Of a DNA stretch of 23,318 nucleotides, positions 447 to 20,513 are shown in pieces. Every line of letters starts with the position of its first letter. Positions within the stretch are counted from its first letter, which is position 1. The notes beneath the pieces were generated by a model, which was not told the origin of the DNA, ran no database searches, and was given only the letters and a program-made list of their open reading frames with translations. The DNA comes from a virus. Location: positions 1 through 23,318 of the IMG/VR virus record IMGVR_UViG_3300044811_000119; one strand, given 5' to 3'. Both the position numbers and the translations under genes were made by a program.

Positions 447-1001
447 GTGAACAAGCGCACGTGGAAACTCACCAAAAACCAGAAGGCCTACATCGTGGTG
501 CGGCTCGCCTGTTACGACTCGCCGCCCGCGATCGCGAAGAGCCTGAAAGAGGATTTCGGCATCGAGATCACGCGGCAAGCGCTCGAACGGTACAATCCGG
601 TGCGCGCTGCCGGGCGCGCGTGTTCGGAACAATGGGCGACGCTGTTTTATGAAACACGCGGCAAGCTCATCGAGGGCAGGGCGGATATCGGCGCGGCGCA
701 CAAAATGGTGCGCCTCCGCTGGCTCGACCGGATGGCGCACCGGGAAATGACCGACGGAAATACCGTGAAGGCGCGCGGCTTGCTCAAGCAGGTGGCCGAG
801 GAAATGGGCGAGAGTGGCAAGCGCAAGCATGAAGAAGTCGGCGCCAACATCAGCGAGCTCAGCGACGCCGAACGCGAAGCGCGCATCGACGCCGTGGCAG
901 CAAGGCTTGGTCTGGTCAGACGTGGTGGAGCTCGAATGCCTGGCGACAGCGACGGAGCGGCAGAAGAGCCGCAACCGCCTGACGAGCCTCTATCCGGATG
1001 A
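447..1001 (+). CDS. Terminase small subunit-like protein (DUF2280-like)
   Basis: This 184-residue protein lies directly upstream of the large terminase and overlaps its 5' end in another frame, the usual place for the DNA-recognition subunit. Residues 1-50 (KNQKAYIVVRLACYDSP, AIAKSLKEDFGIEITRQALE) read as a helix-turn-helix-like unit like that of the DUF2280 family found beside phage terminases. The middle is helical (YETRGKLIEGRADIGAAHKM) and the C-terminus is charged and Pro-rich. A GTG start at 447 is preferred because the conserved segment begins immediately after it and a GAGAG stretch lies upstream. In tailed phages this subunit binds the packaging site and stimulates the large-subunit motor. 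The family assignment is from remembered motifs, so it is moderately sure. Confidence 0.7.
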   Translation: MNKRTWKLTKNQKAYIVVRLACYDSPPAIAKSLKEDFGIEITRQALERYNPVRAAGRACSEQWATLFYETRGKLIEGRADIGAAHKMVRLRWLDRMAHREMTDGNTVKARGLLKQVAEEMGESGKRKHEEVGANISELSDAEREARIDAVAARLGLVRRGGARMPGDSDGAAEEPQPPDEPLSG

Positions 1002-1617
1002 AGGCCCGCTGCGGCGCGAGCTTTACGCCAAGCATATGCAGTTCTTCGCGGCCGGCCGCACCCACCAGGAGCGCTGCATGATGGCGGCGAACCGCGTCGG
1101 CAAGACGTTCGGCGTCGGCGGCTATGAAACGACCTTGCATCTGACCGGCCGCTATCCGGATTGGTGGGAGGGGCGGCGCTTCACCGGGCCGATCGAGGCC
1201 TGGGTCGCGAGCGACACCGCCGAGACCACGCGCGACATCGTGCAGGCCGCACTGATGGGGCCGATTGCCGAACCCGGCGCCGGGCTCATCCCGGCCGACG
1301 CGATCATCGGCGAGCCGAGCCGGCGCTCCGGCGTCACCGGCGCGTTCGACACCGCGCGTATTCGCCATGCATCAGGCGGCATGAGCCTGCTCGGGTTCAA
1401 GTCCTACGACCAGGGCCGCAAGAAATTCCAGGGCACCGCGAAACACGTGGTGTGGCTTGACGAGGAACCGCCCGCGGAGGTCTACGACGAATGCATGCTG
1501 CGGCTGATGACGACGGACGGCTTGATGCTGTGCACGTTCACGCCGCTCCAGGGGCTGACCGAGATCGTGCAGCGGTTCATGCCGCAGCTTGCGGGGCGGG
1601 CGAGGCTCCATCCGTGA
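922..1617 (+). CDS. Terminase large subunit, N-terminal ATPase fragment
   Basis: This is the ATPase half of the DNA-packaging motor. The Walker A motif is ANRVGKT (about residues 56-62 from GTG 922) and the Walker B with catalytic acid is VVWLDEEPP (about 177-184). The preceding RYPDWWEGRRF block is typical of this terminase family. The open frame extends back to ATG 814, but that stretch is a shadow of the small-subunit gene; GTG 922 or 925 or TTG 907 fit the family length better. After LTEIVQRFMPQLAG the frame ends at TGA 1615-1617, just before the position where homologues continue with the link to the nuclease domain. That continuation is found in another frame from 2157. The gene is therefore interrupted; on its own this fragment could not package DNA. 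Confidence 0.85.
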   Translation: MVELECLATATERQKSRNRLTSLYPDEGPLRRELYAKHMQFFAAGRTHQERCMMAANRVGKTFGVGGYETTLHLTGRYPDWWEGRRFTGPIEAWVASDTAETTRDIVQAALMGPIAEPGAGLIPADAIIGEPSRRSGVTGAFDTARIRHASGGMSLLGFKSYDQGRKKFQGTAKHVVWLDEEPPAEVYDECMLRLMTTDGLMLCTFTPLQGLTEIVQRFMPQLAGRARLHP

Positions 1618-2147
1618 TTTGCCGGAAGGGACTGGCGCGCCCGTAGTTGTCACGATCACTTTGGAGGATCTAACCACAGCGCTGGCGGCAGCTGTCTGCG
1701 AGCTTATTTACGCTGTGGTCTATTGCGGCCGATCGGGAGATCGTTTCAGCTACAAAAGCCAAGCGAGTCAAATCGAAGCGGTCTCCCAAGGCAAGGAAGG
1801 GTCATGGATAATAAGTTGCTTGCTGTGCTGGTGTGTCTGCTCGCACTTTTCGCGGGCATCGGCCTCTGCGATGGCTGCAGGGCGGCAAGACTCGCAGCGG
1901 TAAATCACAGCGGAAGTAGCGCACCTCCACACGCCGTAACTAGCGCACCCAAATACGGCGCACCTGCGCGGCGGCAGCTTCGAACGCCAGCGCAGGAAGC
2001 GCCTAGCCTTACGACTGAAGTCCGGCGCTGTGAGGTCGTCGATAGGTCCGGCGCCTTCCAACGATGCCCTCGTCGAGTTGTCTGGCGCGCTAAACCCGGC
2101 TGGCAGCCATACCTCACGAGAAGGGCACGACCAGATCTATGGATTGA
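1618..2147 (+). mobile_element. About 0.5 kb insert splitting the large terminase (intron or small cassette; class unresolved)
   Basis: Homologous terminases run almost directly from the FTPLxGLTEIVQRFMP block into TRFCVQATWDDVPHL; here about 530 nt separate them. The two halves are in different frames, and stops close the frames between them. A short stretch in a third frame (RDLPEGTGAPVV, about 1611-1646) might be residual terminase linker, which would place the true left edge nearer 1650. The insert looks poorer in GC than the flanks. I found no clear inverted-repeat ends, target duplication, transposase, homing endonuclease, group I core or group II domain V. Edges are approximate. Confidence 0.5.
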
Positions 2148-2160
2148 GTCCAGCGCATGA
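1804..2160 (+). CDS. Small exported or membrane protein inside the terminase insert
   Basis: This is a 118-residue ORF whose ATG is preceded by AAGGAAGGG (1794-1802), a good ribosome site only about 1 nt from the start, so spacing is tight. Residues 4-24 form a strong hydrophobic segment (LLAVLVCLLALFAGIGLC), consistent with a signal peptide or membrane anchor. The rest is Pro-, Arg- and Ala-rich with later cysteines (RRCEVVD, FQRCPRR). The stop at 2158-2160 overlaps the first codon of the terminase C-terminal frame (ATGA). It lies wholly within the insert, so it probably arrived with it. No family was recognised. It may be a real cargo gene or a chance frame in the insert. Confidence 0.35.
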   Translation: MDNKLLAVLVCLLALFAGIGLCDGCRAARLAAVNHSGSSAPPHAVTSAPKYGAPARRQLRTPAQEAPSLTTEVRRCEVVDRSGAFQRCPRRVVWRAKPGWQPYLTRRARPDLWIESSA

Positions 2161-2906
2161 CCCGCTTCTGCGTCCAGGCGACATGGGACGACGTCCCGCA
2201 TTTGAGCAAAGCGCAGAAAGCATCGTTGTGGGACGCGATTCCGGAGCATCAGCGTGACGCGCGCACCAGAGGCATTCCGATCCTCGGCTCCGGCCGCGTA
2301 TTCCTCACGCCGGAGGAGAAGATTGTCTGTGAGCCGTTCGATCTGCCGCGCAGCTTCGCGCGCATCACCGGCGTGGACTTCGGCATCGATCATCCGTTCG
2401 CGGCGGCGCGCTGTGCGTGGGACCGCGACAACGACGTCTGGTACGTCACCGCGACCTATCGCGAGAGGGATGCGACGCCGCCAATTCATGCTGCCGCGTT
2501 GCGGCCGTGGGGCACCTGGGTGCCGGTCGCCTGGCCGCATGACGGCCTGAACCGCGACAAGGGCTCGGGCGATCAGCTCGCCGCGCAGTATCGCGCGCAC
2601 GGGCTGAACATGCTGCACGCGCATGCGACGCACGAAGAGGGCGGCAGCGGCGTCGAGGCCGGAATCCTCGACATGATCGAGCGGATGCAGACCGGCCGTT
2701 TCAAGGTGTTTCGCGGGCTGTCGGACTGGTTCGAGGAATACCGCCTCTATCATCGCAAGGACGGGCTGATCGTGAAGCTCGCCGACGATCTCATGTCGGC
2801 GACGCGCTACGCGTTGATGATGCGGCGCTTCGCCGAGGTAGAGCCGTCGCGGAGACAACCGCCGCTCAATCCGTTCGGCAGCGCCGGGGGATGGATGGGG
2901 ACGTGA
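2157..2906 (+). CDS. Terminase large subunit, C-terminal nuclease fragment
   Basis: This is the second half of the split packaging terminase. It opens with the family block TRFCVQATWDDVPHL and HQRDARTRGIPILGSG. It then gives the RNase H-like nuclease domain: GVDFGIDHPF (first catalytic Asp, about residues 73-82), a central DGLNRDKGSGDQ segment and the terminal DDLMSATRYALMM acidic motif (near residue 220). The ATG at 2157 is probably only the first in-frame ATG after the interruption: the frame is open from 2148 just after a TGA, and no strong ribosome site is seen. The 3' end overlaps the longest portal frame by 16 nt. The domain cleaves concatemers during headful packaging, but as a separate polypeptide it lacks the ATPase. 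Confidence 0.85.
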   Translation: MTRFCVQATWDDVPHLSKAQKASLWDAIPEHQRDARTRGIPILGSGRVFLTPEEKIVCEPFDLPRSFARITGVDFGIDHPFAAARCAWDRDNDVWYVTATYRERDATPPIHAAALRPWGTWVPVAWPHDGLNRDKGSGDQLAAQYRAHGLNMLHAHATHEEGGSGVEAGILDMIERMQTGRFKVFRGLSDWFEEYRLYHRKDGLIVKLADDLMSATRYALMMRRFAEVEPSRRQPPLNPFGSAGGWMGT

Positions 2907-4960
2907 GCCACAGGGCTGAAAGCACAATGTCAAAATCGACGAAACGAAAGCCGCAGAAGCCGGACGTCGGCGGGAGCTATGGTGAAACCGCAGACATGAC
3001 CGGCGCGGCCGCGCAAACGGTGCAAGAGGGCAAGCCGGATAAGGACGATGATATTCACCGCACCGCGATCCGGCGCTGGCAGGCCGGATACGACCGCGAC
3101 CGCGACAACATCGACGATGCCTATGAGGACCTCGAGTTTCTCGAAGGCGACCAGTGGCCGAAGGATGCCGTAGCGCTGCGTGAGAACGAGAAGCGCCCGG
3201 TACAGACCTTCAATCGCATGCCGCAATTCGTGCGCCAGATCACCGGCGACATGCGGCTCGCACGCCCCAGCATCAAGGTCGTGCCGGTCGATTCCGGATC
3301 GGACAAGGAGATCGCGCGTATCCGCGCCGGGCTGATCCGCTACATCGAGAACCGATCCGATGCGCAGGCGGCCTACTATCACGGCGGCGACCAGCAGGTT
3401 GCGGCCGGCGTCGGCCACTGGCGCGTCATCAAGGAGTATGCCGGCGACACGACGTTCAACCAGGAGCTTCGCATCGTCGCGATCGAGGACGGCATTTCGG
3501 TGATCTGGGATCCGGACGCGGTGCTGCCGAACAAGGAAGACGCGAAATACTGCTTCGTGCCGGTCGACATGTCGCACGACACGTTCAAGGAGAAATTCCC
3601 CGATGCAGCGCTCGCCGATTTCGAGGACAACGCGAAGGCGATCTCGTCCGGCTGGTACGGCACGGACTTTATTCGCGTCGCCGAATACTGGGTGAAGAAG
3701 CCGGTAACGCGCCTGCTTGCACTGATGGCGGATGGGCGCATCGATGACATCACCGACGACTGCGACAAGGCCGAGCGCTACCGCGAAGACGGCGTTCGGG
3801 TCGAGGAGCGCGAGAGCTTCACGATCTGCCGCTACCTGATCTCGTTCGCCGCGATCCTCGAGGGCCCGGTGGAATGGCCGGGCCGCTACATTCCGATCGT
3901 GCGCTGCCCGGGTGAGGAAACCCGCATCGGTCGCAAAACCAAGCGTCGAGGCATCATCCGCTTCGCCAAGGACGCCCAGCGCGCCTACAATTACGGCCGC
4001 TCGACCCAGACCGAGATCACCGCGCTGCAGCCGAAATCGCCGTTCATCGGCACGGAAGACAATTTCAAGGACTACCAGGCGTACTGGAATCTCGCGAACG
4101 TCAAGGCGTTCCCGTATCTGCCGTACAAGCCCGATCCGCGGAACAGCGGCGTCCCGCCGCAACGCGTGCAGCCGCCGGTGTCGTCGCAGGGCGTGAACGA
4201 AACGGTCCTGCTGGCGGCCGAAGACATGAAGGGCGTGATCGGCATCTACGACTCGGCACTCGGCGCGCAATCGAACGAGGTGAGCGCCCGCGCCATCATG
4301 GCGCGCGATCGCCAGGGCGACATCGGCTCGTTCGTCTATCAGGACAATTGGGGTCGCGCGATCCGCCACACCGCGACGATCGTGAACGATCTCATCCCGC
4401 ATGTGTACGACGTCGAGCGCACGATCCGCATCCTCGGCGACGACGGCAGGGAAGAGCTGATCGCCATCAACAAGGCCGTGGCCGGCGACGGCCTGGAAGA
4501 GACCGAGCGCGTGCTCAACGACGTGACGATCGGCGCCTATGACGTCGTGTTCCGTCCGGGCCCGAGCTTCTCGTCGCGGCGCGAGGAGGCGCGGGAAGGC
4601 ATGATGGCGTTCCTGCAGTCCTCGCCCAATGCCGCGCCGCTCGTGCTCGACCTGATCGCGGAGTCGCAGGACTGGCCGAACGCCGACAAGATCGGCAAGC
4701 GGCTCGAGCATCTGTTGCCCGATCCGATCCGCGCGCGCGAGGCGGCCGAACGCGGCGAGCCGTTGGCACCGCAGCCTCCGGATCCCGCGCAGGCGGCGGC
4801 GATGCAGGCGGCCGCGATGCGGCTGCAGGCGGAATTGCAGCAGCTGCAGCTCGAGAACGAGGGCAAGGCGCTGGACAACGAGAAGCGCCGGATCGAGCTC
4901 GCCGCGATGGTGCGCGACAGACAGGCGGCGGCCGGAGTCGCGGACAGCGGCCGTACATAG
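2891..4960 (+). CDS. P22-type portal protein
   Basis: This is a 689-residue protein from ATG 2891. The alternative ATG 2927 (MSKSTKRKP) gives 677 residues, begins where charged family-like sequence starts and has AGGG upstream; either may be used. The length is close to P22 gp1 (725). Recognisable blocks are the early DLEFLEGDQWP and NRMPQFVRQITGDMR (about residues 75-120), the central RRGIIRFAKDAQRAYNYGRS, and ALQPKSPFIGTEDNFKDYQ (about 350-400). The C-terminal tail (about 620-680) is an Ala/Gln-rich coiled coil, like the barrel region of P22 portals. The dodecameric portal is the DNA channel at the head vertex and the docking site for terminase and tail. It follows the terminase directly. 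Confidence 0.92.
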   Translation: MDGDVSHRAESTMSKSTKRKPQKPDVGGSYGETADMTGAAAQTVQEGKPDKDDDIHRTAIRRWQAGYDRDRDNIDDAYEDLEFLEGDQWPKDAVALRENEKRPVQTFNRMPQFVRQITGDMRLARPSIKVVPVDSGSDKEIARIRAGLIRYIENRSDAQAAYYHGGDQQVAAGVGHWRVIKEYAGDTTFNQELRIVAIEDGISVIWDPDAVLPNKEDAKYCFVPVDMSHDTFKEKFPDAALADFEDNAKAISSGWYGTDFIRVAEYWVKKPVTRLLALMADGRIDDITDDCDKAERYREDGVRVEERESFTICRYLISFAAILEGPVEWPGRYIPIVRCPGEETRIGRKTKRRGIIRFAKDAQRAYNYGRSTQTEITALQPKSPFIGTEDNFKDYQAYWNLANVKAFPYLPYKPDPRNSGVPPQRVQPPVSSQGVNETVLLAAEDMKGVIGIYDSALGAQSNEVSARAIMARDRQGDIGSFVYQDNWGRAIRHTATIVNDLIPHVYDVERTIRILGDDGREELIAINKAVAGDGLEETERVLNDVTIGAYDVVFRPGPSFSSRREEAREGMMAFLQSSPNAAPLVLDLIAESQDWPNADKIGKRLEHLLPDPIRAREAAERGEPLAPQPPDPAQAAAMQAAAMRLQAELQQLQLENEGKALDNEKRRIELAAMVRDRQAAAGVADSGRT

Positions 4961-4981
4961 CCGGCCGACAAGGTCGTGCCG

Positions 4982-6217
4982 TCAGCGCGAACGGGGATCG
5001 AAGCGGATCGGGCAGCTCGCCATGCCGCGGATGACCAGCGAGTCGGTCCAGGCTGGTTCGGCGTCCTTGAGGACAATGTTCGTCAACCGCTCGACCAGGA
5101 TCGGCAGTGCCACCTCGCCTTCGAGACGGGCAAGATGTGCGCCGAGGCACAGATGGATGCCCGATCCGAAGGCAAGCTGCCGGTTGGCTTCGGGCCGGCG
5201 CAGGTCGAGCCGCTCCGGCGTTGCGAACACGGTCGCATCATGATTGGCGCCCGCGATGAACAGATAAGCGCGTTCGCCTTTTGCCAACCGCCGTCCGGCG
5301 AGGTCGAGGTCGGCATTCACGATCCGCAGCTGGGCGATACTGGGACCCTCCCAGCGCAGGAGTTCATTGAGGGCATTGCGCAAGAAGGACGGATTGCTCC
5401 AGTGGGACCGGAAGTCCGCATGCTGATCTGGATGGCGCACCAGCGACCAGAACGCGTTGGCGAGGAAGTGCGTCGTTGTCTCGTGTCCGGCGAAAAGCAA
5501 GAGGACGCAGGAGGCGAGCAGCTCTTCGAGCGAGAGCCTGTCTTCGCCGTCATGCGCCGCAATCAGGTCGTCGATAATGTCCTGTCCGGGCGTGCGGCGG
5601 CGCCGTTCGACAAGGGCGGCGAAGTAGTCAAGCATGGAGGCGAGGCTTGCGGCCGCGACGGCGTATTTGTCGGACCGGATCCGCGCAGACAAGACGAAGG
5701 TCGCCAGATCGTCGGACCAGCGCTTGAGGTCGTCGACGTCCTCGCGCGGCACGCCGAGCATGTCCGCAATGACCGTCGCCGGCAGTGGATATGCGAAATC
5801 GGCGATAACATCCATTTGGCCGGCGCCGGCGACCCGGTCGAGCAAGTCGTGGACGATGCCGGCAATGTCGGGGCGCAGAGCCTCGACGGCACGGCGCGTG
5901 AACGCTTTCGCGACGAGGTCGCGCAAGCGCGTGTGGCTTGGCGGATCGTTGAACACCATCCAAAGGCTAAGGCAATCGCCAAGCACGACGACATCGTCCT
6001 TGCGCGCCCGGCTTTGCGCGGCGACGAAGGGGCGGATGCGGTCGGAGGAGAATCGATCATCCTTGAACGCACGCTCCACGTCGGCAAACGTGGTGAGACA
6101 CCAGGCGCCGAGGCGGTCGTTCCAATGAACCGGATCGGCGTGATGAAGACGCCGCAGCAGCGTATACGGATCGCGAATTGCACCGGGACTGGCAAAATCG
6201 ACCTGCTGAGCCGTCAT
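4982..6217 (-). CDS. Cytochrome P450 monooxygenase (bacterial soluble class)
   Basis: This is a complete 411-residue P450 on the strand opposite to all flanking virion genes. Every hallmark is present: the I-helix oxygen-activation motif AGHETTT (residues 243-249), the K-helix ExxR (E285, R288), and the haem-ligand loop FGSGIHLCLG (350-359) with Cys357 as thiolate ligand. The start ATG 6217 is preceded by GGGGAGAGC; the frame is open further to 6280 but adds non-family sequence. There is no membrane anchor, so it should be soluble and need ferredoxin and reductase partners, none of which is encoded nearby. The substrate cannot be read from sequence. The gene fills the space between portal and scaffold, ending 21 nt from the portal stop. 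It looks like host-derived cargo with intact motifs, so probably functional. Confidence 0.95.
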   Translation of the reverse strand: MTAQQVDFASPGAIRDPYTLLRRLHHADPVHWNDRLGAWCLTTFADVERAFKDDRFSSDRIRPFVAAQSRARKDDVVVLGDCLSLWMVFNDPPSHTRLRDLVAKAFTRRAVEALRPDIAGIVHDLLDRVAGAGQMDVIADFAYPLPATVIADMLGVPREDVDDLKRWSDDLATFVLSARIRSDKYAVAAASLASMLDYFAALVERRRRTPGQDIIDDLIAAHDGEDRLSLEELLASCVLLLFAGHETTTHFLANAFWSLVRHPDQHADFRSHWSNPSFLRNALNELLRWEGPSIAQLRIVNADLDLAGRRLAKGERAYLFIAGANHDATVFATPERLDLRRPEANRQLAFGSGIHLCLGAHLARLEGEVALPILVERLTNIVLKDAEPAWTDSLVIRGMASCPIRFDPRSR

Positions 6218-6406
6218 TCTTTGCTCTCCCCGGCCAGATGTCCGGTGTGGCATCGGGCCCGTCATGACGCAAACGCCCACTGAAGCGATATCCGGAATGG
6301 CGCCCGGGCAGTCGGCGTCCTTTTTATACTAGTCCCGCGGGCCGTCCCGCGTCCCACTTCGCCGTGCAGGCGTCCGACGACCGGGCGCCGCCGCGTTTCG
6401 AAGAGA

Positions 6407-6424
6407 GCCGCCCGTTCGGGCGGC
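6407..6424 (+). promoter_or_regulatory. Perfect hairpin upstream of the scaffold gene
   Basis: A 7-bp perfect stem GCCGCCC/GGGCGGC with GTTC loop is followed by ATTTTGTCTT and then the AAGGAG ribosome site of the gene at 6447. It resembles a weak Rho-independent terminator or an RNA-processing stem between the P450 locus and the head operon. Confidence 0.5.
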
Positions 6425-6446: not shown

Positions 6447-7319
6447 ATGTCCGAGGTGGTTGAAAACCAGTCCTTTGCGCCGGCCGAAAGCGCGCCTGCC
6501 GCTGGCGAAGCTTCAACGCCTGCCGATTCCTTCGGGGAGCCGCAGACGCAATGGGCAGAGACGCCGGAAGAGCCCGCGCAGCAGAATGCCGCGTTCGGCG
6601 ACGACGGCGAGGATGAGGAACGAGGAAAGCGGCCTTCGCGCTCGCAGCGTTTGCAGCGCAAGGCGCAGCTTCTCGCGGCCGAGAACGAACAGTTGCGCCG
6701 CCAGCTTGGCGCCGGCGTGCGTCCTCCATGGGATGCCGCGGCGGACATGAGCGGGGGCGAACAGCCGCCGCGGGAAGCCGATTTCAACGGCGACCATCTC
6801 GCATATCTGCGGGCGCACCAGGCCTTCGGCCTGGGGCAGGCGGCACGCGAGGCGGTACGATCGCAAGTCGAGCGGGAGTATGCGCACCGCGCCGCCGCGC
6901 ATGAAGCCGCGGACCACCGTGAGCGCGTCGTTGCGCATTACGAGCGGGTCGACGAGCTGAAGGATCGCGTCGGCGACTTCGACAACGCGATGAAGGTCGC
7001 CGCCACGATCAACCTGCGGCCCGACGTCGCGCGGGAAATCCTCGGTTCGGAGAAATCCGCCCTCATCCAGTATCACCTTGCCAAGAATCCCGACAAAGCG
7101 CGCGAGTTGAACGGCCTCTCGAGCCGCGAACTCGTGCGCGCCATCGGGCGTCTGGAAGGCGCGGTCCGTCTGCCCGCCGCGCGACGCGCAACCTGGGCGA
7201 CGCCGCCCGTGCACCCGCTCACCGGCGCCACGTCTGCATCCTTCGATCCGTTCAAGGCCGAGATGGATGAATTCGCGGCGCACTGGAATGCGCGGGAAGC
7301 CGCACGACGGCGCGCCTGA
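6447..7319 (+). CDS. Capsid scaffold-like protein
   Basis: This is a 290-residue, highly charged protein immediately before the coat gene, the classical scaffold position. Residues 1-65 are acidic and Pro/Ala/Glu-rich (EDEERG). Residues 65-90 are a basic coiled coil (RLQRKAQLLAAENEQLRRQL), and residues 120-200 are a long helical region. The C-terminal end is basic (WNAREAARRRA), as expected for the coat-binding tail of P22 scaffolds. A good ribosome site (AAGGAG, 6437-6442) sits 4 nt before the ATG. Scaffold proteins line the prohead interior and leave before or during packaging. Identification rests on position and composition; sequence similarity to P22 gp8 itself is not evident. Confidence 0.75.
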   Translation: MSEVVENQSFAPAESAPAAGEASTPADSFGEPQTQWAETPEEPAQQNAAFGDDGEDEERGKRPSRSQRLQRKAQLLAAENEQLRRQLGAGVRPPWDAAADMSGGEQPPREADFNGDHLAYLRAHQAFGLGQAAREAVRSQVEREYAHRAAAHEAADHRERVVAHYERVDELKDRVGDFDNAMKVAATINLRPDVAREILGSEKSALIQYHLAKNPDKARELNGLSSRELVRAIGRLEGAVRLPAARRATWATPPVHPLTGATSASFDPFKAEMDEFAAHWNAREAARRRA

Positions 7320-7393: not shown

Positions 7394-8629
7394 ATGGCTC
7401 AGAATGTGTTGACCGCGGACGTCATCGCCAAGGCGGCGCTGATGGTCCTCGAGAACAATCTCATCGGCGCGAACCTGGTCTATCGCGGCTATGAGGACGA
7501 GTTCGACCGCAACGGCTACAAGATTGGCGATACCGTGATGGTGCGCCGCCCGGCCCAGTTCACAGTCCGCCGCGGCGAGACCGCGCAGATCCAGGAAGTG
7601 AAGGAAGGCAAGTTCCCGATCACCGTCAACATCCTCGACGGCGTGGACTTCAAGTTCTCCTCGACCGACCTGACGCTGCGCATCGAAGACCTCGCGGATC
7701 GGGTGATGAAGCCCGCGCTGCTCCAACTCGCCAACAACATCGATATGGAGGTGTGGAAGCTCTACAAGTCCGTACCGAGCTGGGCCGGCACGCCGGGCCA
7801 GACCATCAACAGCTTCGCGGATTTCGGCAAGGGCCCGGAGCGGCTCGACAAGATGGCGGTGCCGCAGGATGAGCGCGCCGGCGTCATGTCGGCGACCGAC
7901 TACTGGGGCATGCTCGGGTCGCAGACCTCGCTGTTCATGCAGAGTCCGGCGGGCGATGCCTATCGCCGCGCCAAGCTCGGCATGATCGGAAACGTCGACA
8001 CGTACATGGCGCAGAACGTGCAGACGCACATCGTGGGCGACGCGGCCGGTACCGGCACGCCGCTGGTCAACGGCGGCAATCAGGGCGTCACGTACGAGTC
8101 CGTGAAGGACACCAATACGCAGAACCTGATCGTCGACGGCTTCGGCAACAGCAAGACGCTGAAGCAGGGCGACGTGTTCACCATCGCCAACGTGTTCGCG
8201 ATCAATCCGGTCACCAAGGCGACGGAGGACTATCTCCAGCAGTTCGTCGTGATGTCCGACACGGTGACGCATGCGGCGGGCGGCGATACCACGATCCCGA
8301 TCTCGCCGGCGATCATCACGTCGGGCGCGTATCAGACGGTTTCTGCCGCGCCCGCGGACAATGCCGCCGTCACGGTGCTCGGCACGGCCTCGACCGGCTA
8401 CAAGCAGAACCTGGTGTTCCACAAGAACGCCTTTGCGCTGACGATGGTGCCGCTCGAGCTTCCCGCCGGCGCAAGCGGCGCCGCGCGGCGCAGCTACAAC
8501 GGCCTGTCGGTGCGCGTGGTGCCGACCTGGGACGGCGTGAACAATACGTCGTTCTGGCGGCTCGACGTGCTCTACGGCGCCAAGGCGATCGACACGCGGC
8601 TCGCGACGCGGCTGTCCGGCACGCCGTAA
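7394..8629 (+). CDS. P22-type major capsid (coat) protein
   Basis: This 411-residue protein (P22 gp5 has 430) has the layout of the P22 coat family: an N-terminal arm with ALMVLENNLIGANLVYRGYE (about 15-34) and a GDTVMVRRP strand (about 46-54). A VDFKFSSTDLTLRIEDLADR block (about 83-102) is followed by the helix LLQLANNIDMEVWKL. An inserted beta domain (about 220-300) precedes the C-terminal FHKNAFALTMVPLELP and FWRLDVLYGAKAIDTRLATR segments, which end the family fold. It builds the icosahedral head. It is the third gene of the head set, with a strong ribosome site (AGAAGGA) behind a double hairpin. No frameshift or truncation is visible. Confidence 0.93.
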   Translation: MAQNVLTADVIAKAALMVLENNLIGANLVYRGYEDEFDRNGYKIGDTVMVRRPAQFTVRRGETAQIQEVKEGKFPITVNILDGVDFKFSSTDLTLRIEDLADRVMKPALLQLANNIDMEVWKLYKSVPSWAGTPGQTINSFADFGKGPERLDKMAVPQDERAGVMSATDYWGMLGSQTSLFMQSPAGDAYRRAKLGMIGNVDTYMAQNVQTHIVGDAAGTGTPLVNGGNQGVTYESVKDTNTQNLIVDGFGNSKTLKQGDVFTIANVFAINPVTKATEDYLQQFVVMSDTVTHAAGGDTTIPISPAIITSGAYQTVSAAPADNAAVTVLGTASTGYKQNLVFHKNAFALTMVPLELPAGASGAARRSYNGLSVRVVPTWDGVNNTSFWRLDVLYGAKAIDTRLATRLSGTP

Positions 8630-8654
8630 TCATCAACCCGAAACAGATGCGCTG

Positions 8655-8680
8655 CCGGCACGGGCTATCGCTCGTGCCGG
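8655..8680 (+). promoter_or_regulatory. Hairpin between coat and head-fibre genes
   Basis: There is an 8-bp perfect stem CCGGCACG/CGTGCCGG, extended by a G-T and a G-C pair toward a six-base loop. It lies 26 nt after the coat stop and 28 nt before the next ATG, with no T-run. It is a candidate RNA-processing or partial-termination element. Confidence 0.45.
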
Positions 8681-8708
8681 TTCGCGCGTCGCATGAGGAG
8701 AAGACACA

Positions 8709-8945
8709 ATGCCAGTTCGTCAGCTTTCCGACGGCTCGCCCGACGGCCAGTCGCTCGGGCAGTCCACCGCCGACAAGGTGAGCCTCTACGGCGTTGCGCC
8801 GATCGCGCAGCGCGCCGGCGCCGCGCAGGCCACGTCGCTGGTCGGCACGGCCTCGTCCACCGCGATCGACACCAACACCAAGGCGGCGATCATCGAGATC
8901 ATGAACACGCTGACCGCGCTCGGTGCGTGGAAGGGCTCTGCGTAA
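8709..8945 (+). CDS. Small head-fibre or decoration-like protein
   Basis: This is a 78-residue protein with an excellent ribosome site (GAGGAGAAG, 8695-8703). The sequence pattern is that of the small head-fibre-like proteins found after the coat gene in many phages: a Ser/Gly/Asp-rich N-terminus, the segment SLYGVAPIAQRAGAAQATS, then a short helix (KAAIIEIMNTLTALGAW) at the end, which probably trimerises. It probably decorates the outside of the capsid and is dispensable for assembly in such phages. The assignment rests on the pattern and genomic place. The gene marks the edge after which the 9036-10425 cargo begins. Confidence 0.6.
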   Translation: MPVRQLSDGSPDGQSLGQSTADKVSLYGVAPIAQRAGAAQATSLVGTASSTAIDTNTKAAIIEIMNTLTALGAWKGSA

Positions 8946-8957
8946 AAAGGAACGTCT

Positions 8958-8989
8958 CGCGGCGCGCTGGAGCGATCCAGCGTGCCGCG
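8958..8989 (+). promoter_or_regulatory. Strong 13-bp hairpin after the head-fibre gene
   Basis: The arms CGCGGCGCGCTGG and CCAGCGTGCCGCG pair over 13 bp with one G-T wobble around the loop AGCGAT. It begins 13 nt after the head-fibre stop and ends 46 nt before the cargo start at 9036. The 3' flank TTGTTCGGG is only weakly T-rich. It may reduce read-through into the cargo genes, and it lies exactly at the junction of core and cargo. Confidence 0.6.
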
Positions 8990-9035
8990 ATTGTTCGGGC
9001 GCGGCTTTGACATTCAACGAACCAAGAGCACCGAA

Positions 9036-9998
9036 ATGATGCAAGGCGTGTTCTACGATACGGCGGGACGCTATTTCGTGCCGCCAGAGGGCGTGACGCT
9101 CGCTACCTTGGGCGCGCCGCCGTATTCGCCGCCAGGTGAAGATTGGGACGGTGAGGTTCCGGGCGTAGAAGTGTCTGGCCCCACCGGCTTGAGCTCGTTT
9201 GGTGCGATGCCCTGGGCCGCCGTCGAAACAGCGGCGCCGGGCGCGGCGATCTCCTTCGCCGACATGGTCCGAACGATCAGCCCCGTCGCTGAACCGGACG
9301 TGTGGCGCGAGGACAATCGCGCGCCGTTCTGGATTCCGGACGACGCGCGCGCGGGCCCGTCGTTCGACGACCTGGCCGGGACAATCGATCCCCGCGCCGT
9401 TGCGCTCGGCGTAGTCCGCATTCCCGGGTTGCCGGAAGACGCGACGGAATGGGGCTGGCACGACAGGTCACCAGGCCGCGGCGGCGAAGCCGAGCGACTC
9501 GCGTCCATGTGGAACCGGATTTTCGGTTTGGAACTGGCGACGGAGTATACTCCGCACGAAGGAGGGGGACCGCGCGGTCTCACCATTACGGGGGGAGGCG
9601 TAGGAGGCGGAAGGCGGGGCGGAGGTAGCAGCGGCAGCGGTAGGGCCGCCGGGGCATCAGGCAGCAGCGATAAATACATTCCCGGCGCAGACGCCGCCGG
9701 AGAAGGGCCAAATGGCGTGATCCTGAACGGGATTGTTTACAGGGGCGGCGGACCAAATCCCGGGAACTGGAAAGCGAAGCCTGGGCAGGATCATTCGACC
9801 CGGGACACGGTCTCCAACCCCTGGCCGATGCCGAGCACCGGACCAGTCTTTCGAGTCCGCAAGCCGATTACTGAGGTGGATGCCGCAAAACTCCCGCCCG
9901 GAAGCGTGGTTCGTGATAATGATCCGCCCGGGCATGTTAACATCGACGGCTCGCTGTTGTGGGATCTGATCCAGAAGGCAATCAAGAGGAGGCCGTGA
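9036..9998 (+). CDS. Modular cargo protein with repeated virion-locus motif and toxin-like C-terminal domain
   Basis: This is a 320-residue protein from ATG 9036 (ATG 9039 also possible; an upstream GTG at 8982 lies inside a hairpin and is unlikely). Residues 1-130 share a domain with the gene at 11677: GRYFVPPEG near the start, then ISFADMVRTISPVAEPDVW (72-90) and a second weaker copy SFDDLAGTIDPRA (109-121). Residues 175-212 are a Gly/Ser linker. The C-terminal domain (about 221-320) holds YRGGGPNPGNWKAKPG, STRDTVSNPWP and KLPPGSVVRDNDPPGHV. This resembles C-terminal toxin modules of polymorphic toxins, perhaps with an ADP-ribosyltransferase-like (Tse2-like) YRG motif, but that is recall, not proof. 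An immunity-like gene follows after 1 nt. No signal peptide is visible. Confidence 0.65.
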   Translation: MMQGVFYDTAGRYFVPPEGVTLATLGAPPYSPPGEDWDGEVPGVEVSGPTGLSSFGAMPWAAVETAAPGAAISFADMVRTISPVAEPDVWREDNRAPFWIPDDARAGPSFDDLAGTIDPRAVALGVVRIPGLPEDATEWGWHDRSPGRGGEAERLASMWNRIFGLELATEYTPHEGGGPRGLTITGGGVGGGRRGGGSSGSGRAAGASGSSDKYIPGADAAGEGPNGVILNGIVYRGGGPNPGNWKAKPGQDHSTRDTVSNPWPMPSTGPVFRVRKPITEVDAAKLPPGSVVRDNDPPGHVNIDGSLLWDLIQKAIKRRP

Positions 9999-9999
9999 C

Positions 10000-10425
10000 A
10001 TGTCGAATCCGCTTGATAGAGCTTTGATGGCCTTATTGGCGGAGACGGCCAGCGCGATGTCGACACTTCTGCTTGCGCTGCACGCAAATCCCAAGATTGC
10101 CGAGGTAACGCGGGGCTTGGACATCACGAAATATGAGAGCCCACTGGCCGAAGAGGAAAACTCTTATACGTTCGAGTCATATGTGGAAACCGAGACGCGC
10201 GACGGCAACCAATTCTATTGGTTGCTGGATATTAAGAGGAGGCCAGACGGCTGGATGGTTGAAAGGCGGATCGACAAGCAATTCGACGGCGGCGCCCAAA
10301 GCGTGCGGGATTTTGAAGATTTCAGGTGCGAGGATTTCGACGAGCTCGCCAAGAACCATGCGGACCTGATGAACGAATTCATCAAATCCGCAGATAATTT
10401 CGATTTCTCGATCGAGTCGGAATGA
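10000..10425 (+). CDS. Small acidic protein, candidate immunity protein for the 9036 product
   Basis: This is a 141-residue, strongly acidic protein with one N-terminal hydrophobic helix (about residues 8-28) and then mixed beta/alpha sequence (YTFESYVETE, QFYWLLDIKRRPDGWMVERR, DFEDFRCEDFDELAKNH). Its ATG is 1 nt after the stop of the toxin-like gene, with a very strong ribosome site (AAGAGGAGG, 9984-9992), so the two are translationally coupled. Its GC content is visibly lower than that of the neighbours, pointing to separate origin. Acidic, small, directly downstream partners are typical of immunity proteins, but no immunity family was recognised. It could instead be a chaperone or adaptor for loading the upstream protein. 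Confidence 0.6.
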   Translation: MSNPLDRALMALLAETASAMSTLLLALHANPKIAEVTRGLDITKYESPLAEEENSYTFESYVETETRDGNQFYWLLDIKRRPDGWMVERRIDKQFDGGAQSVRDFEDFRCEDFDELAKNHADLMNEFIKSADNFDFSIESE

Positions 10426-11676: not shown

Positions 11677-12229
11677 ATGGATCGCACGCTGGACGACATC
11701 GAAGGCGGCTATGTGATCGTGCCGCCGGGCGAAGGCATCTCCCTCGCCGAAATCGACAAGCTGGCCTACCCGACGATGGGCTACGCCACAGGGCAAGAAC
11801 GTCCGGCCGCGCTTTTTGTCGTGCGCCCGTTGCGGCACGACGATCCGGAGGGCTTGGGTGGTTCGGGACGATACGATGGCGGCATCTCGTTCGACGATCT
11901 TCTCCGCACCATTAATCCAAAAGCAAATCCGAACGTCTGGACGAACGCGGACAGCGCGCCGTACTGGCACATGGGTGTTTCCTCACCTTCTCGGACCGAC
12001 AGGTCCGGCGATGCGCGCGTGTTCGCTCCGACATTGCCGGGGGCGCCGCCTGCCGAGCGACCGGTGACGCGACGTACTAAAGTTTACAGCGACCGGCATC
12101 CGTCACAAGGACGCGGCGTTCGATCCCGCGAAGCGGCACACTCACAATATCTTCGCGACTATCGCCGGCGCCGGTGCCGTGCCGGTTCTCGCGGCATCGG
12201 GGTCGGAGACGAATCCCAGCCCGCGATGA
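11677..12229 (+). pseudogene. Frameshifted relative of the 9036 cargo protein, C-terminus lost
   Basis: From ATG 11677 (ribosome site AAGAGG, 11662-11667) residues 1-100 match the N-terminal part of the 9036 product: GGYVIVPPGEG corresponds to GRYFVPPEG, and ISFDDLLRTINPKANPNVW (70-88) shares about half its residues with the 9036 motif. In the starting frame the sequence becomes Arg-rich and non-protein-like after RPVTRR and runs to 12279. From about 12068 a +1 frame gives far better sequence (FTATGIRHKDAAFDPAKRHTH, then a hydrophobic IFATIAGAGAVPVLAAS) ending at TGA 12227-12229. I infer a one-base indel near 12066-12072. No toxin domain remains downstream, so it is an orphan or decayed module, or the frameshift is a sequence error. 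Confidence 0.55.
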
Positions 12230-12449
12230 CATGGGGGCCAAACGGCTCACCATATTTCTCGAAATGGCGTTCGCAGTAGTAGTCCCAGACCCACTGGGCA
12301 TCATAGGTCGCATCATCGCGCGGGTGGTTGTTGCGCTCGGCGCGCATCGCATCGAACGAGTTCCTGAGGATATCCTTGTCCATCAGGAATGACGCGCGAT
12401 CGAAGTCGATCACGCTGCCGCTCCAGGCCAGAACATAGGTGTGAAACAC
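12159..12449 (-). CDS. Small unrecognised protein convergent with the second cargo gene
   Basis: On the minus strand, GTG 12449 with AGGGG 6 nt upstream opens a 96-residue frame; ATG 12383 is an alternative start. The sequence is protein-like: VIDFDRASFLMDKDILRNSF and then YDAQWVWDYYCERHFEKYGE, rich in aromatic and acidic residues. The last 20 residues are Arg/Pro-rich and overlap the + strand cargo frame (12159-12229). The frame stays open to 12689, but the upstream part has no protein character. A plausible promoter precedes it (12482-12509). I do not recognise the family. As the only gene beside the broken module it could be an immunity or regulatory partner, or an unrelated small gene. 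Confidence 0.5.
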   Translation of the reverse strand: MFHTYVLAWSGSVIDFDRASFLMDKDILRNSFDAMRAERNNHPRDDATYDAQWVWDYYCERHFEKYGEPFGPHVIAGWDSSPTPMPREPARHRRRR

Positions 12450-12771: not shown

Positions 12772-14189
12772 CTGCCGTCCCGTTCCCCGTCACCTCCGCG
12801 CCTGGCGCGCGGCCGCAGGAGAGCGCCGGCCGGCTGGTCAACGCCTATGCGGTGAAGACCGAACAGGGCGCGCGCGGTCCGCTGAAATGGGTGCGCGCAC
12901 CGGGGCTGCGTGAGCTCGTGACGATTGGCGGCCGCGCGCGCTATCGCGGTTTCATCGAAATCAACGGCAGCGTGCTGGCGGCGCTGGAAGACCGTGCGGT
13001 GCTGATCACGAAATCCGGCAGCGTCACGAGCGTGACCGATCTCGGCGCCCTCGACGGCACCGACCTCGTCACCATCGCGAAGAATAATGCGGCGCCGGTG
13101 GCGAATATCGTCGCGGTGACGGAAGAGGGTGCGTTCAATCTCTACACCGACGACGTGCCGGACAATTTCGCCGACGCGGACCTGCCGCAACCGAACAGCG
13201 TCAGCGGGGTGAAGGGCTACTTCGCCTTCACGATCGCGGATGGACGGCTGTTTGCGAGCGATCTGAATTCCGTCAATCTCAACTCGCTGAGTTTCACCAC
13301 GGCGCCGGGTCACCTGCTGCGCGGCGTGTCCTATCGCGGCGAATGGTTCGTGTTCGGCGACAATTTCTGCCAAGTCTATCGCGACGCGGGCCTTTCGCCG
13401 TTCCCGTTCGACCTCGTCGCCACGATCCCGATCGGGTTAGCGGGCACGCATGCAATCGCCGGATGGGAGCCGGGCTTCACCGGCACGATGGCGTGGGCGG
13501 CGCAGGACGACGTCGTCTACAAGCTCAACGGTTACACGCCGCAGCCGGTCTCGACCGAGGACGTGTCGCGCGACATCGCGGCGACGCCGGACAAGAGCGT
13601 GCTCGAAGCGTCCGTGTACATGTCGAACGGCAATGCCTTCTGGGTGCTGACGCGTCCGGGGTTCTGGAGCTGGACGCTCAATCTCACGACCGGCACGTGG
13701 GCGCAACGCATATCGTACGATCACGAGAGCTGGCGTGCCGCGCGCACTGTGAAAGCCTTCTCGACCTGGCTCGCGGGAGATCGCGGCAGCGGCAAGCTGT
13801 TCGAGATCGGCGCGGACGCGTTCCGCGAAGGCAACGATCCGCTGGTGTTCGAGGTCGTGTCGGGGGCGGTGCTCTCGTCGCCTAATCGCCTTGCGATCGG
13901 TCGCCTCGACGTCGACATGGTCGCGGCGGCCGGGCGTGCGGCGGGCGAAGAGAACGAGAGCGACCCGCAGGTCGAGATCTCGTGGTCGCTCGACGGCGGC
14001 TACCGCTGGAGCAATCCGGTGTTCCGCTCGATCGGCCGGGAAGGCGAATCCCGCAAGACGATTTCGGTCAACCGGCTGGGCCTCGCCGGGCCGAAGGGCA
14101 TCATGATCAAACTGCGCGTCTCCGATCCCGTGCACGTCACGCTATTCGGAGCGGCACTGACACTCATCGATCAAAGGGCGCCGAAGTGA
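12768..14189 (+). CDS. P22 gp10-like packaged DNA stabilisation (tail hub) protein
   Basis: This 473-residue protein (P22 gp10 has 472) shows the family pattern. The N-terminal VTSAPGARPQESAGRLVNAY block (about 7-26) is followed by repeated beta blades with RYRGFIEINGSVLAALEDRA, the central LLRGVSYRGEWFVFGDNFCQVY (about 183-204) and MAWAAQDDVVYKLNGYTPQPVST. The C-terminal beta-rich part ends SDPVHVTLFGAALTLIDQ. The ATG at 12768 is chosen because homology starts there and because of the ATGA coupling; the open frame extends to 12603. In P22 it forms the hexameric ring that closes the portal channel after packaging. It is intact and flanked by the ejection-type gene. Confidence 0.88.
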   Translation: MTAVPFPVTSAPGARPQESAGRLVNAYAVKTEQGARGPLKWVRAPGLRELVTIGGRARYRGFIEINGSVLAALEDRAVLITKSGSVTSVTDLGALDGTDLVTIAKNNAAPVANIVAVTEEGAFNLYTDDVPDNFADADLPQPNSVSGVKGYFAFTIADGRLFASDLNSVNLNSLSFTTAPGHLLRGVSYRGEWFVFGDNFCQVYRDAGLSPFPFDLVATIPIGLAGTHAIAGWEPGFTGTMAWAAQDDVVYKLNGYTPQPVSTEDVSRDIAATPDKSVLEASVYMSNGNAFWVLTRPGFWSWTLNLTTGTWAQRISYDHESWRAARTVKAFSTWLAGDRGSGKLFEIGADAFREGNDPLVFEVVSGAVLSSPNRLAIGRLDVDMVAAAGRAAGEENESDPQVEISWSLDGGYRWSNPVFRSIGREGESRKTISVNRLGLAGPKGIMIKLRVSDPVHVTLFGAALTLIDQRAPK

Positions 14190-19677: not shown

Positions 19678-19703
19678 TTGCACGGTCTCTCTCCGCCGTG
19701 CAA
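19678..19703 (+). promoter_or_regulatory. Hairpin between tail spike and methyltransferase
   Basis: A perfect 8-bp stem TTGCACGG/CCGTGCAA with a 10-nt pyrimidine-rich loop lies 8 nt after the spike stop. The candidate GTG start 19698 is inside it, which favours ATG 19713 as the methyltransferase start. Confidence 0.5.
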
Positions 19704-19712
19704 TCTCTGCGC

Positions 19713-20513
19713 ATGCTACGGCGCCTGCACGCGAACGGTTTCGATCAGGTAGACGCGATCCTTACCGGGCTCGCGCGCAGTGGATGGTGGCTGGAGCGAG
19801 GGGCCAAGGTTCTGGATTTCGGGTGCGGCGCCGGCGATCTCGTCTATCAGCTTCGCGATCGCGGTTTTGACGCCTACGGCTTCGACCTGTTCGACACCGC
19901 CAAGCCGCGCAGTCCCGGCGATGCGGCACTGTTCGCATTCCACGAGGTGACCCGCGTCAATCCGGCCGATACCCGCATCGCCGACGCCGACATTACGCTG
20001 CCCTATGAGACCGCGACGTTCGACCTCGTCGTCTCGATGACGGTGATCGAACACTGCTATGCGCTGGACGGCATGATGCGGGAATGCGCGCGAGTGCTGA
20101 AGCCGGGGGGCATCTCGCTACACCTATACCCGAGCCGCAACCAGGCGATCGAGCCACATTTCTTCGTCCCGTTCGGCGGACGCGTCCAGGCAGATTGGTG
20201 GCTGCTGCTGTGGGCGCGTCTCGGCGTGCGCAATGAATTCCAGCAGGCCATGACGGCGGCCGAGGCGGCCTCCCACAACCGCTTTTATCTCGATTCCGGG
20301 ATCGCGTACCGCCCCGACGCGGAGGTCATGCGTATCGCATACAATCATTTCGGGGTAGTCGCCTTCGCGGACAGGACTTTCCACCGTTCTGATCCGCTCA
20401 AGAGCAGGCTATCGAGATTGTGGGCGGCGCTGCTCAGCAAGGATGTGTGGCATCAGCTATCGCTGCTCATTCCCGGCCGCGTATTGCTGGCGAGGATGCC
20501 GAATCACCGCTAG
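19713..20513 (+). CDS. SAM-dependent methyltransferase (class I)
   Basis: This is a 266-residue protein from ATG 19713. Motif I is VLDFGCGAGDLVYQL (about residues 33-47), with the motif II acidic end at YGFDLFD (about 55-61). FDLVVSMTVIEHCYALDGMM (motif IV, post-I region) and RVLKPGGISLHLYP (motif V/VI) follow, the pattern of small-molecule or sugar methyltransferases, not of DNA methylases (no DPPY/NPPY). The C-terminal third contains substrate-domain sequence with HNRFYLDSGIAYRP. It is soluble. It follows the tail spike and ends on a CTAG palindrome shared with the convergent gene. It may alter host surface glycans or a virion glycan together with the glycosyltransferase at 10549; this is inference. 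Confidence 0.75.
   Translation: MLRRLHANGFDQVDAILTGLARSGWWLERGAKVLDFGCGAGDLVYQLRDRGFDAYGFDLFDTAKPRSPGDAALFAFHEVTRVNPADTRIADADITLPYETATFDLVVSMTVIEHCYALDGMMRECARVLKPGGISLHLYPSRNQAIEPHFFVPFGGRVQADWWLLLWARLGVRNEFQQAMTAAEAASHNRFYLDSGIAYRPDAEVMRIAYNHFGVVAFADRTFHRSDPLKSRLSRLWAALLSKDVWHQLSLLIPGRVLLARMPNHR

Follow-up and report, generated by a model that had tools for sequence, protein, structure and literature searches.

An intact cytochrome P450 gene between the portal and scaffold genes of a P22-like podovirus

Giant viruses, a herpesvirus, and Mycobacterium phage Adler were already known to encode P450s (PMC9405906; PMC9317374), the Adler enzyme being credited in both papers to Lamb et al. (2019); at the time of PMC9405906, no viral P450 was reported to have a redox-partner gene next to it. 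P22-like temperate podoviruses are known to carry morons: the variable toxin cassettes of APSE lie in a toxin–holin–lysozyme module and are associated with lysogenic conversion, and the portal and scaffold genes of APSE are adjacent, 50 nt apart (PMC8579659). The P450 gene reported here resembles the APSE cassettes as variable cargo of a P22-type phage, but is encoded on the opposite strand, in the interval that separates portal from scaffold. Our structure search added one further viral protein, CypX of an uncultured Caudovirales phage (A0A6J5NCR8), which shared 23% identity with our P450 by fold alignment. Tailed-phage P450s are already known, though in very few cases, and to our knowledge none of them has a known role. 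Like the Adler and CypX genes, the present gene is encoded in a tailed-phage genome; it differs from them in belonging to a P22-like podovirus, in occupying a defined virion-operon junction, in occurring in two lineages, and in having had its selection measured.

The window, that is, the whole 23,318-nt stretch of IMG/VR record IMGVR_UViG_3300044811_000119 analyzed here, encodes on its plus strand a P22-type portal (2891–4960; PF16510, P22_portal, E = 8e-181), a scaffolding protein (6447–7319; PF09306, E = 1.4e-7; PHROG 8865, E = 3e-32), and a P22-type coat protein (7394–8629; PF11651, E = 7e-52). With these three genes in this order, the phage is, by its gene content, a P22-like podovirus. 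The P450 gene occupies positions 4982–6217 of the minus strand; profile match, motifs, fold, and dN/dS all describe a complete and intact gene for a protein of 411 aa. Its frame begins with an ATG at 6217, preceded by a good Shine-Dalgarno sequence, GGGGAGAGCAAAGA, and ends with a stop codon complementary to 4982–4984, exactly 21 nt from the portal stop (4958–4960). A longer alternative start, GTG at 6280, was excluded because the other lineage has a 2-nt deletion between it and the ATG. The earlier note on this DNA, made from its letters alone, had placed an intact P450 opposite the virion genes at 21 nt from the portal stop, and both its coordinates and its motifs proved right.

The protein matched the Pfam p450 profile (PF00067) with E = 7e-28 and a score of 98 bits (cut-off, 22.8), and a phmmer search of the PDB gave E = 1.7e-71; comparisons with NCBIfam, Pfam, and the PDB agreed on a cytochrome P450. 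None of the NCBIfam equivalog cut-offs was reached, and therefore no specific function could be transferred. The I-helix motif AGHETTT starts at residue 243, conforming to the AGxET pattern of the superfamily, and the K-helix ExxR motif is present as ELLR (residues 285–288); AGHETT and ELLR were invariant in the alignment. The heme-binding pattern FxxGxxxCxG is represented by FGSGIHLCLG (residues 350–359), with Cys357 as the axial ligand. The AlphaFold model (pLDDT 87.0, pTM 0.88) predicts a P450 fold with confidence; the protein would be a soluble bacterial P450 monooxygenase. The best Foldseek match in the PDB was P450BioI (CYP107H1; PDB IDs: 3ejb, 3ejd, and 3eje), of which entry 3ejd, the complex with acyl carrier protein, aligned with E = 9e-29, a TM-score of approximately 0.86, and 32% identity. 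Unlike P450BioI, the phage P450 has no biotin genes nearby. P450 families are conventionally named at identities of at least 40%, and the values of 32% to P450BioI and 36% to CYP107X1 place the phage protein outside the CYP107 family. From the P450BioI/CYP107-like fold of the model, we would guess at a fatty-acyl or terpenoid-type substrate. CYP107 macrolide and polyketide oxidases also occur among the fold neighbors, as might be expected of a defense or competition gene whose product, by modifying a toxic or antibiotic-like molecule of host, plant, or competitor origin, protects the lysogen or alters a phage-exclusion signal. However, fold similarity at 31–36% identity does not predict substrate, and we consider such a role improbable.

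The rarity of phage P450s, asserted in the earlier note, was borne out by our searches: PHROGs contained no match to the window P450, the only match in INPHARED (50,697 phage records) was weak and came from an unverified record (MT835505.1, 26087–26314), and a profile scan of IMG/VR, which relies on short peptide patterns and overlooks more distant P450s, returned only three sister contigs. The P450 of Adler was not recovered by tblastn with the window P450. In MT835505.1, the P450-like ORF adjoins genes that look actinobacterial; as its surroundings appear bacterial, we rejected this match as probable bacterial contamination. Such rarity might suggest that the gene is a passive hitch-hiker or an assembly artefact, with host DNA either fused to a phage contig or left behind within it. 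Against this, the three sister contigs (3300026095_000525, 3300048895_000237, and 3300006931_000347) carry the same P450 with 98% amino-acid identity, on the minus strand and again at the portal–scaffold junction, so that both junctions are common to four contigs. On these data, the identical portal–P450–scaffold arrangement rules out an assembly chimera, one of the two outcomes that the earlier note had named as refuting its reading; the other was degeneracy of the gene in related phages. Because the sister contigs are 99.85–99.98% identical to one another and approximately 95% identical to the window, the four records represent two lineages only, and these were the only carriers among a first set of 81 portal loci.

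Comparison of the two lineages showed that the P450 gene is kept by purifying selection. We counted 26.5 synonymous and 8.5 non-synonymous changes and no stop codons (dS = 0.089, dN = 0.009, dN/dS = 0.10; Fisher P = 4e-10), and none of the eight amino-acid replacements fell in the motifs. Similar ratios were obtained for the virion genes (portal, 0.12; coat, 0.10). A dN/dS of 0.10 excluded a decaying host fragment and, with it, degeneracy in the relatives compared. In codon usage and GC content, the P450 gene resembled the other genes of the phage (r = 0.86; 64% GC), which likewise speaks against host DNA in the contig, and the artefactual origin is in our judgment barely credible.

Cellular homologues were sought by a scan of a genome collection and by whole-genome searches. 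The closest were proteins of metagenome-assembled genomes (MAGs) with 54–55% identity. In the phylogenetic tree, the phage pair fell inside a mostly alphaproteobacterial group, in which two P450s of Alphaproteobacteria (51% identity; support 96/87) were its sister group, in agreement with the alphaproteobacterial link that the earlier note had proposed to check by phylogeny. At E = 1e-60, a homologue was found in 62 of the 385 sampled alphaproteobacterial genomes (approximately 16%) versus 7 of 369 gammaproteobacterial genomes. By sequence, the P450 gene is thus of alphaproteobacterial affinity. The sister alphaproteobacterial genes (G208 and G301; loci L177 and L178) and the MAG genes (L013 and L014), at 51–55% identity, have the motif WMVFNDPPxHTRLR in common with the phage P450, and no ferredoxin was seen adjoining them; they differ in being chromosomal and in lying approximately 0.4–0.6 changes per site from the phage clade. 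Plasmid homologues reached 43% identity at most. The acquisition is old, because the best cellular sequences are only 54–55% identical, and the phage-like codon usage and GC content also suggest a long residence in the phage. A recent transfer from a sampled host was ruled out, no cellular relative exceeding 55%. Most cellular homologues are stand-alone genes whose flanks contained no conserved neighbor, and hence gave no clue to the substrate from the neighborhood; the lack of a consistent pathway among these neighbors also weighs against the action on a toxic or antibiotic-like molecule considered above. A prophage search of the 385 alphaproteobacterial genomes, aimed at the host, retrieved only distant portals (39–40% identity).

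To place the junction in context, a portal profile search gave 389 relatives, the best 80 of which were kept. At the 75 loci where the positions of portal and scaffold were both identifiable, the gap between them was shorter than 400 nt in 41 and at least 400 nt in 34, the four P450 carriers being among the latter. With so many long gaps, cargo at this junction is recurrent and the P450 no isolated case. In a more distant portal set, 21 of 40 measurable loci likewise had gaps of at least 400 nt, filled mostly with tail-like or structural-type genes on the plus strand. The premise that portal and scaffold are normally adjacent therefore holds for P22, APSE, and 41 of the 75 relatives, but not for the other 34, while the clean P450 insertion between the two genes claimed alongside it was confirmed at the junction itself. 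Many of the inserts in the 75 relatives are also plus-strand small or structural-type genes. Minus-strand inserts were found in L115 (3300045256_000810), where positions 8163–10159 encode an Fe/Mn superoxide dismutase and a D-2-hydroxyacid dehydrogenase, and in L087, where a 260-aa ORF at 13343–14125 had no Pfam matches. The N-terminus of the L115 superoxide dismutase resembles a Tat signal.

These data show that the portal–scaffold junction is a tolerant, variable, and recurrent cargo site. The superoxide dismutase at the same junction suggests stress protection and would suit a P450 with a role in defense. Both the shared junction and the oxidative enzymes of L115 point to a site of cargo that lends itself to systematic searches for phage genes with an effect on host chemistry. 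A stronger version, which we regard as speculative and unlikely, would make the junction a dedicated dock for redox and metabolic cargo (the P450, the superoxide dismutase with the 2-hydroxyacid dehydrogenase, and others), insulated by a double hairpin; temperate podoviruses would then supply soil bacteria with new oxidative chemistry, for example for the breakdown of plant or antibiotic compounds.

The junctions of cargo-free relatives consist of the portal stop, approximately 10–20 nt, a hairpin (HP1), and a T-tailed, terminator-like hairpin (HP2) just before the scaffold start. Both hairpins are retained in the window, and sequence homologous to that of cargo-free junctions (GAGCTTCGC..GCAGG) begins again at approximately 6356; because of this, the inserted cassette would span approximately 4961–6355, from the portal stop as its left edge, and comprise the P450 gene with approximately 140 nt upstream of it. 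No direct repeats of at least 7 nt were found at the cassette ends. On the P450 strand, the upstream part contains a conserved AT-rich sequence, TAGTATAAAAAG. A weak candidate for the core of the P450 promoter, TAGTATAAAAA (6321–6332, minus strand), is located 104 nt ahead of the P450 start codon; it is conserved between the lineages, lies within the cassette, and is missing from cargo-free junctions. A consensus promoter scan found no sigma-70 site. A convergent hairpin in the gap between the P450 and portal genes (4962–4981) was no better than shuffled sequences.

HP1 lies at 6369–6389 on the plus strand (GGCGTCCG-ACGAC-CGGGCGCC), and its form, with 9-bp arms and a 5-nt loop, recurred in the majority of the 20 relatives that were inspected. 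The arms vary between loci yet remain paired (92.7% of cells over 19 sequences), with two-sided compensatory changes in 9 of 16 pairs; none of 500 shuffles reached the observed values, and pairing was lost when the partner was slid. HP2 (6407–6424, plus strand; GCCGCCC-GTTC-GGGCGGC followed by ATTTTG), which resembles an intrinsic terminator before the scaffold gene, had a z-score of −4.3 and was paired in 99% of cells across 19 sequences. This covarying double hairpin (6369–6424) is conserved at the portal–scaffold junction throughout the phage group and possibly serves in attenuation or termination of the late operon.

We consider the P450 gene to be most probably a moron, an independent cargo gene in a tolerated virion-operon junction of a P22-like podovirus, encoding a host-reduced monooxygenase that probably acts in the lysogen; we assign this reading a probability of roughly 60%. 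It is the most economical one because the gene opposes the late genes, has a cassette of its own, comes without a redox partner in the window, and belongs to a group in which an integrase was present in 9 of the 19 relatives searched. No integrase or repressor gene was found in the 23-kb fragment or in the three related fragments. The fragment without integrase, the 10 of 19 relatives in which none was found, and the selection on the gene would also suit a lytic auxiliary metabolic gene, active in productive infection rather than lysogeny and shifting host lipid or signal chemistry toward virion production. However, the gene is convergent with the portal and runs against the late operon, so that late expression would interfere, and integrase carriers do occur among the relatives; we regard a lytic role as unlikely, if somewhat less so than one in defense.

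As a moron, the P450 gene would be transcribed leftward from the AT-rich upstream site of its own cassette, and such transcription, opposing the late genes, would be most useful when these are silent, in the lysogen or early in infection. The heme enzyme would draw electrons from a ferredoxin and ferredoxin reductase of the host. Pfam scans of the main ORFs of the window detected no ferredoxin, flavodoxin, or reductase, in line with the earlier expectation that host partners are needed. The enzyme would then hydroxylate a small hydrophobic compound, and the product may give an advantage to the host cell and thereby to the phage. It is thus probable that the P450 changes the chemistry of the bacterium that the phage infects; the host benefit and the host redox supply are assumptions on our part, because a homologue at E = 1e-60 was present in only approximately 16% of the alphaproteobacterial genomes sampled. 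As the gene is intact, selected, repeatedly sampled, and precisely delimited, its function is directly testable.

The large terminase gene of the window (814–2906) is split into an ATPase ORF (814–1617) and a nuclease ORF with its own ATG (2157–2906), separated by approximately 540 nt that hold a signal-peptide-like ORF. The terminase of the sister contig L005 (4533–6863) has a different insert of approximately 780 nt at the same point, and the gene of L151 is undivided. A group I or II intron in the terminase insert was ruled out, as there was no Rfam match. A small minus-strand ORF at 12159–12383 weakly resembles the anti-CRISPR protein AcrIC5 in a manner that depends on the chosen start (28.1 bits for the long ORF and 17.5 bits for the trimmed ORF; cut-off, 27), and the region around it differs in L004. 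Downstream of the tail genes, positions 19698–20513 encode a SAM-dependent methyltransferase (PF08241, E = 1.8e-16).
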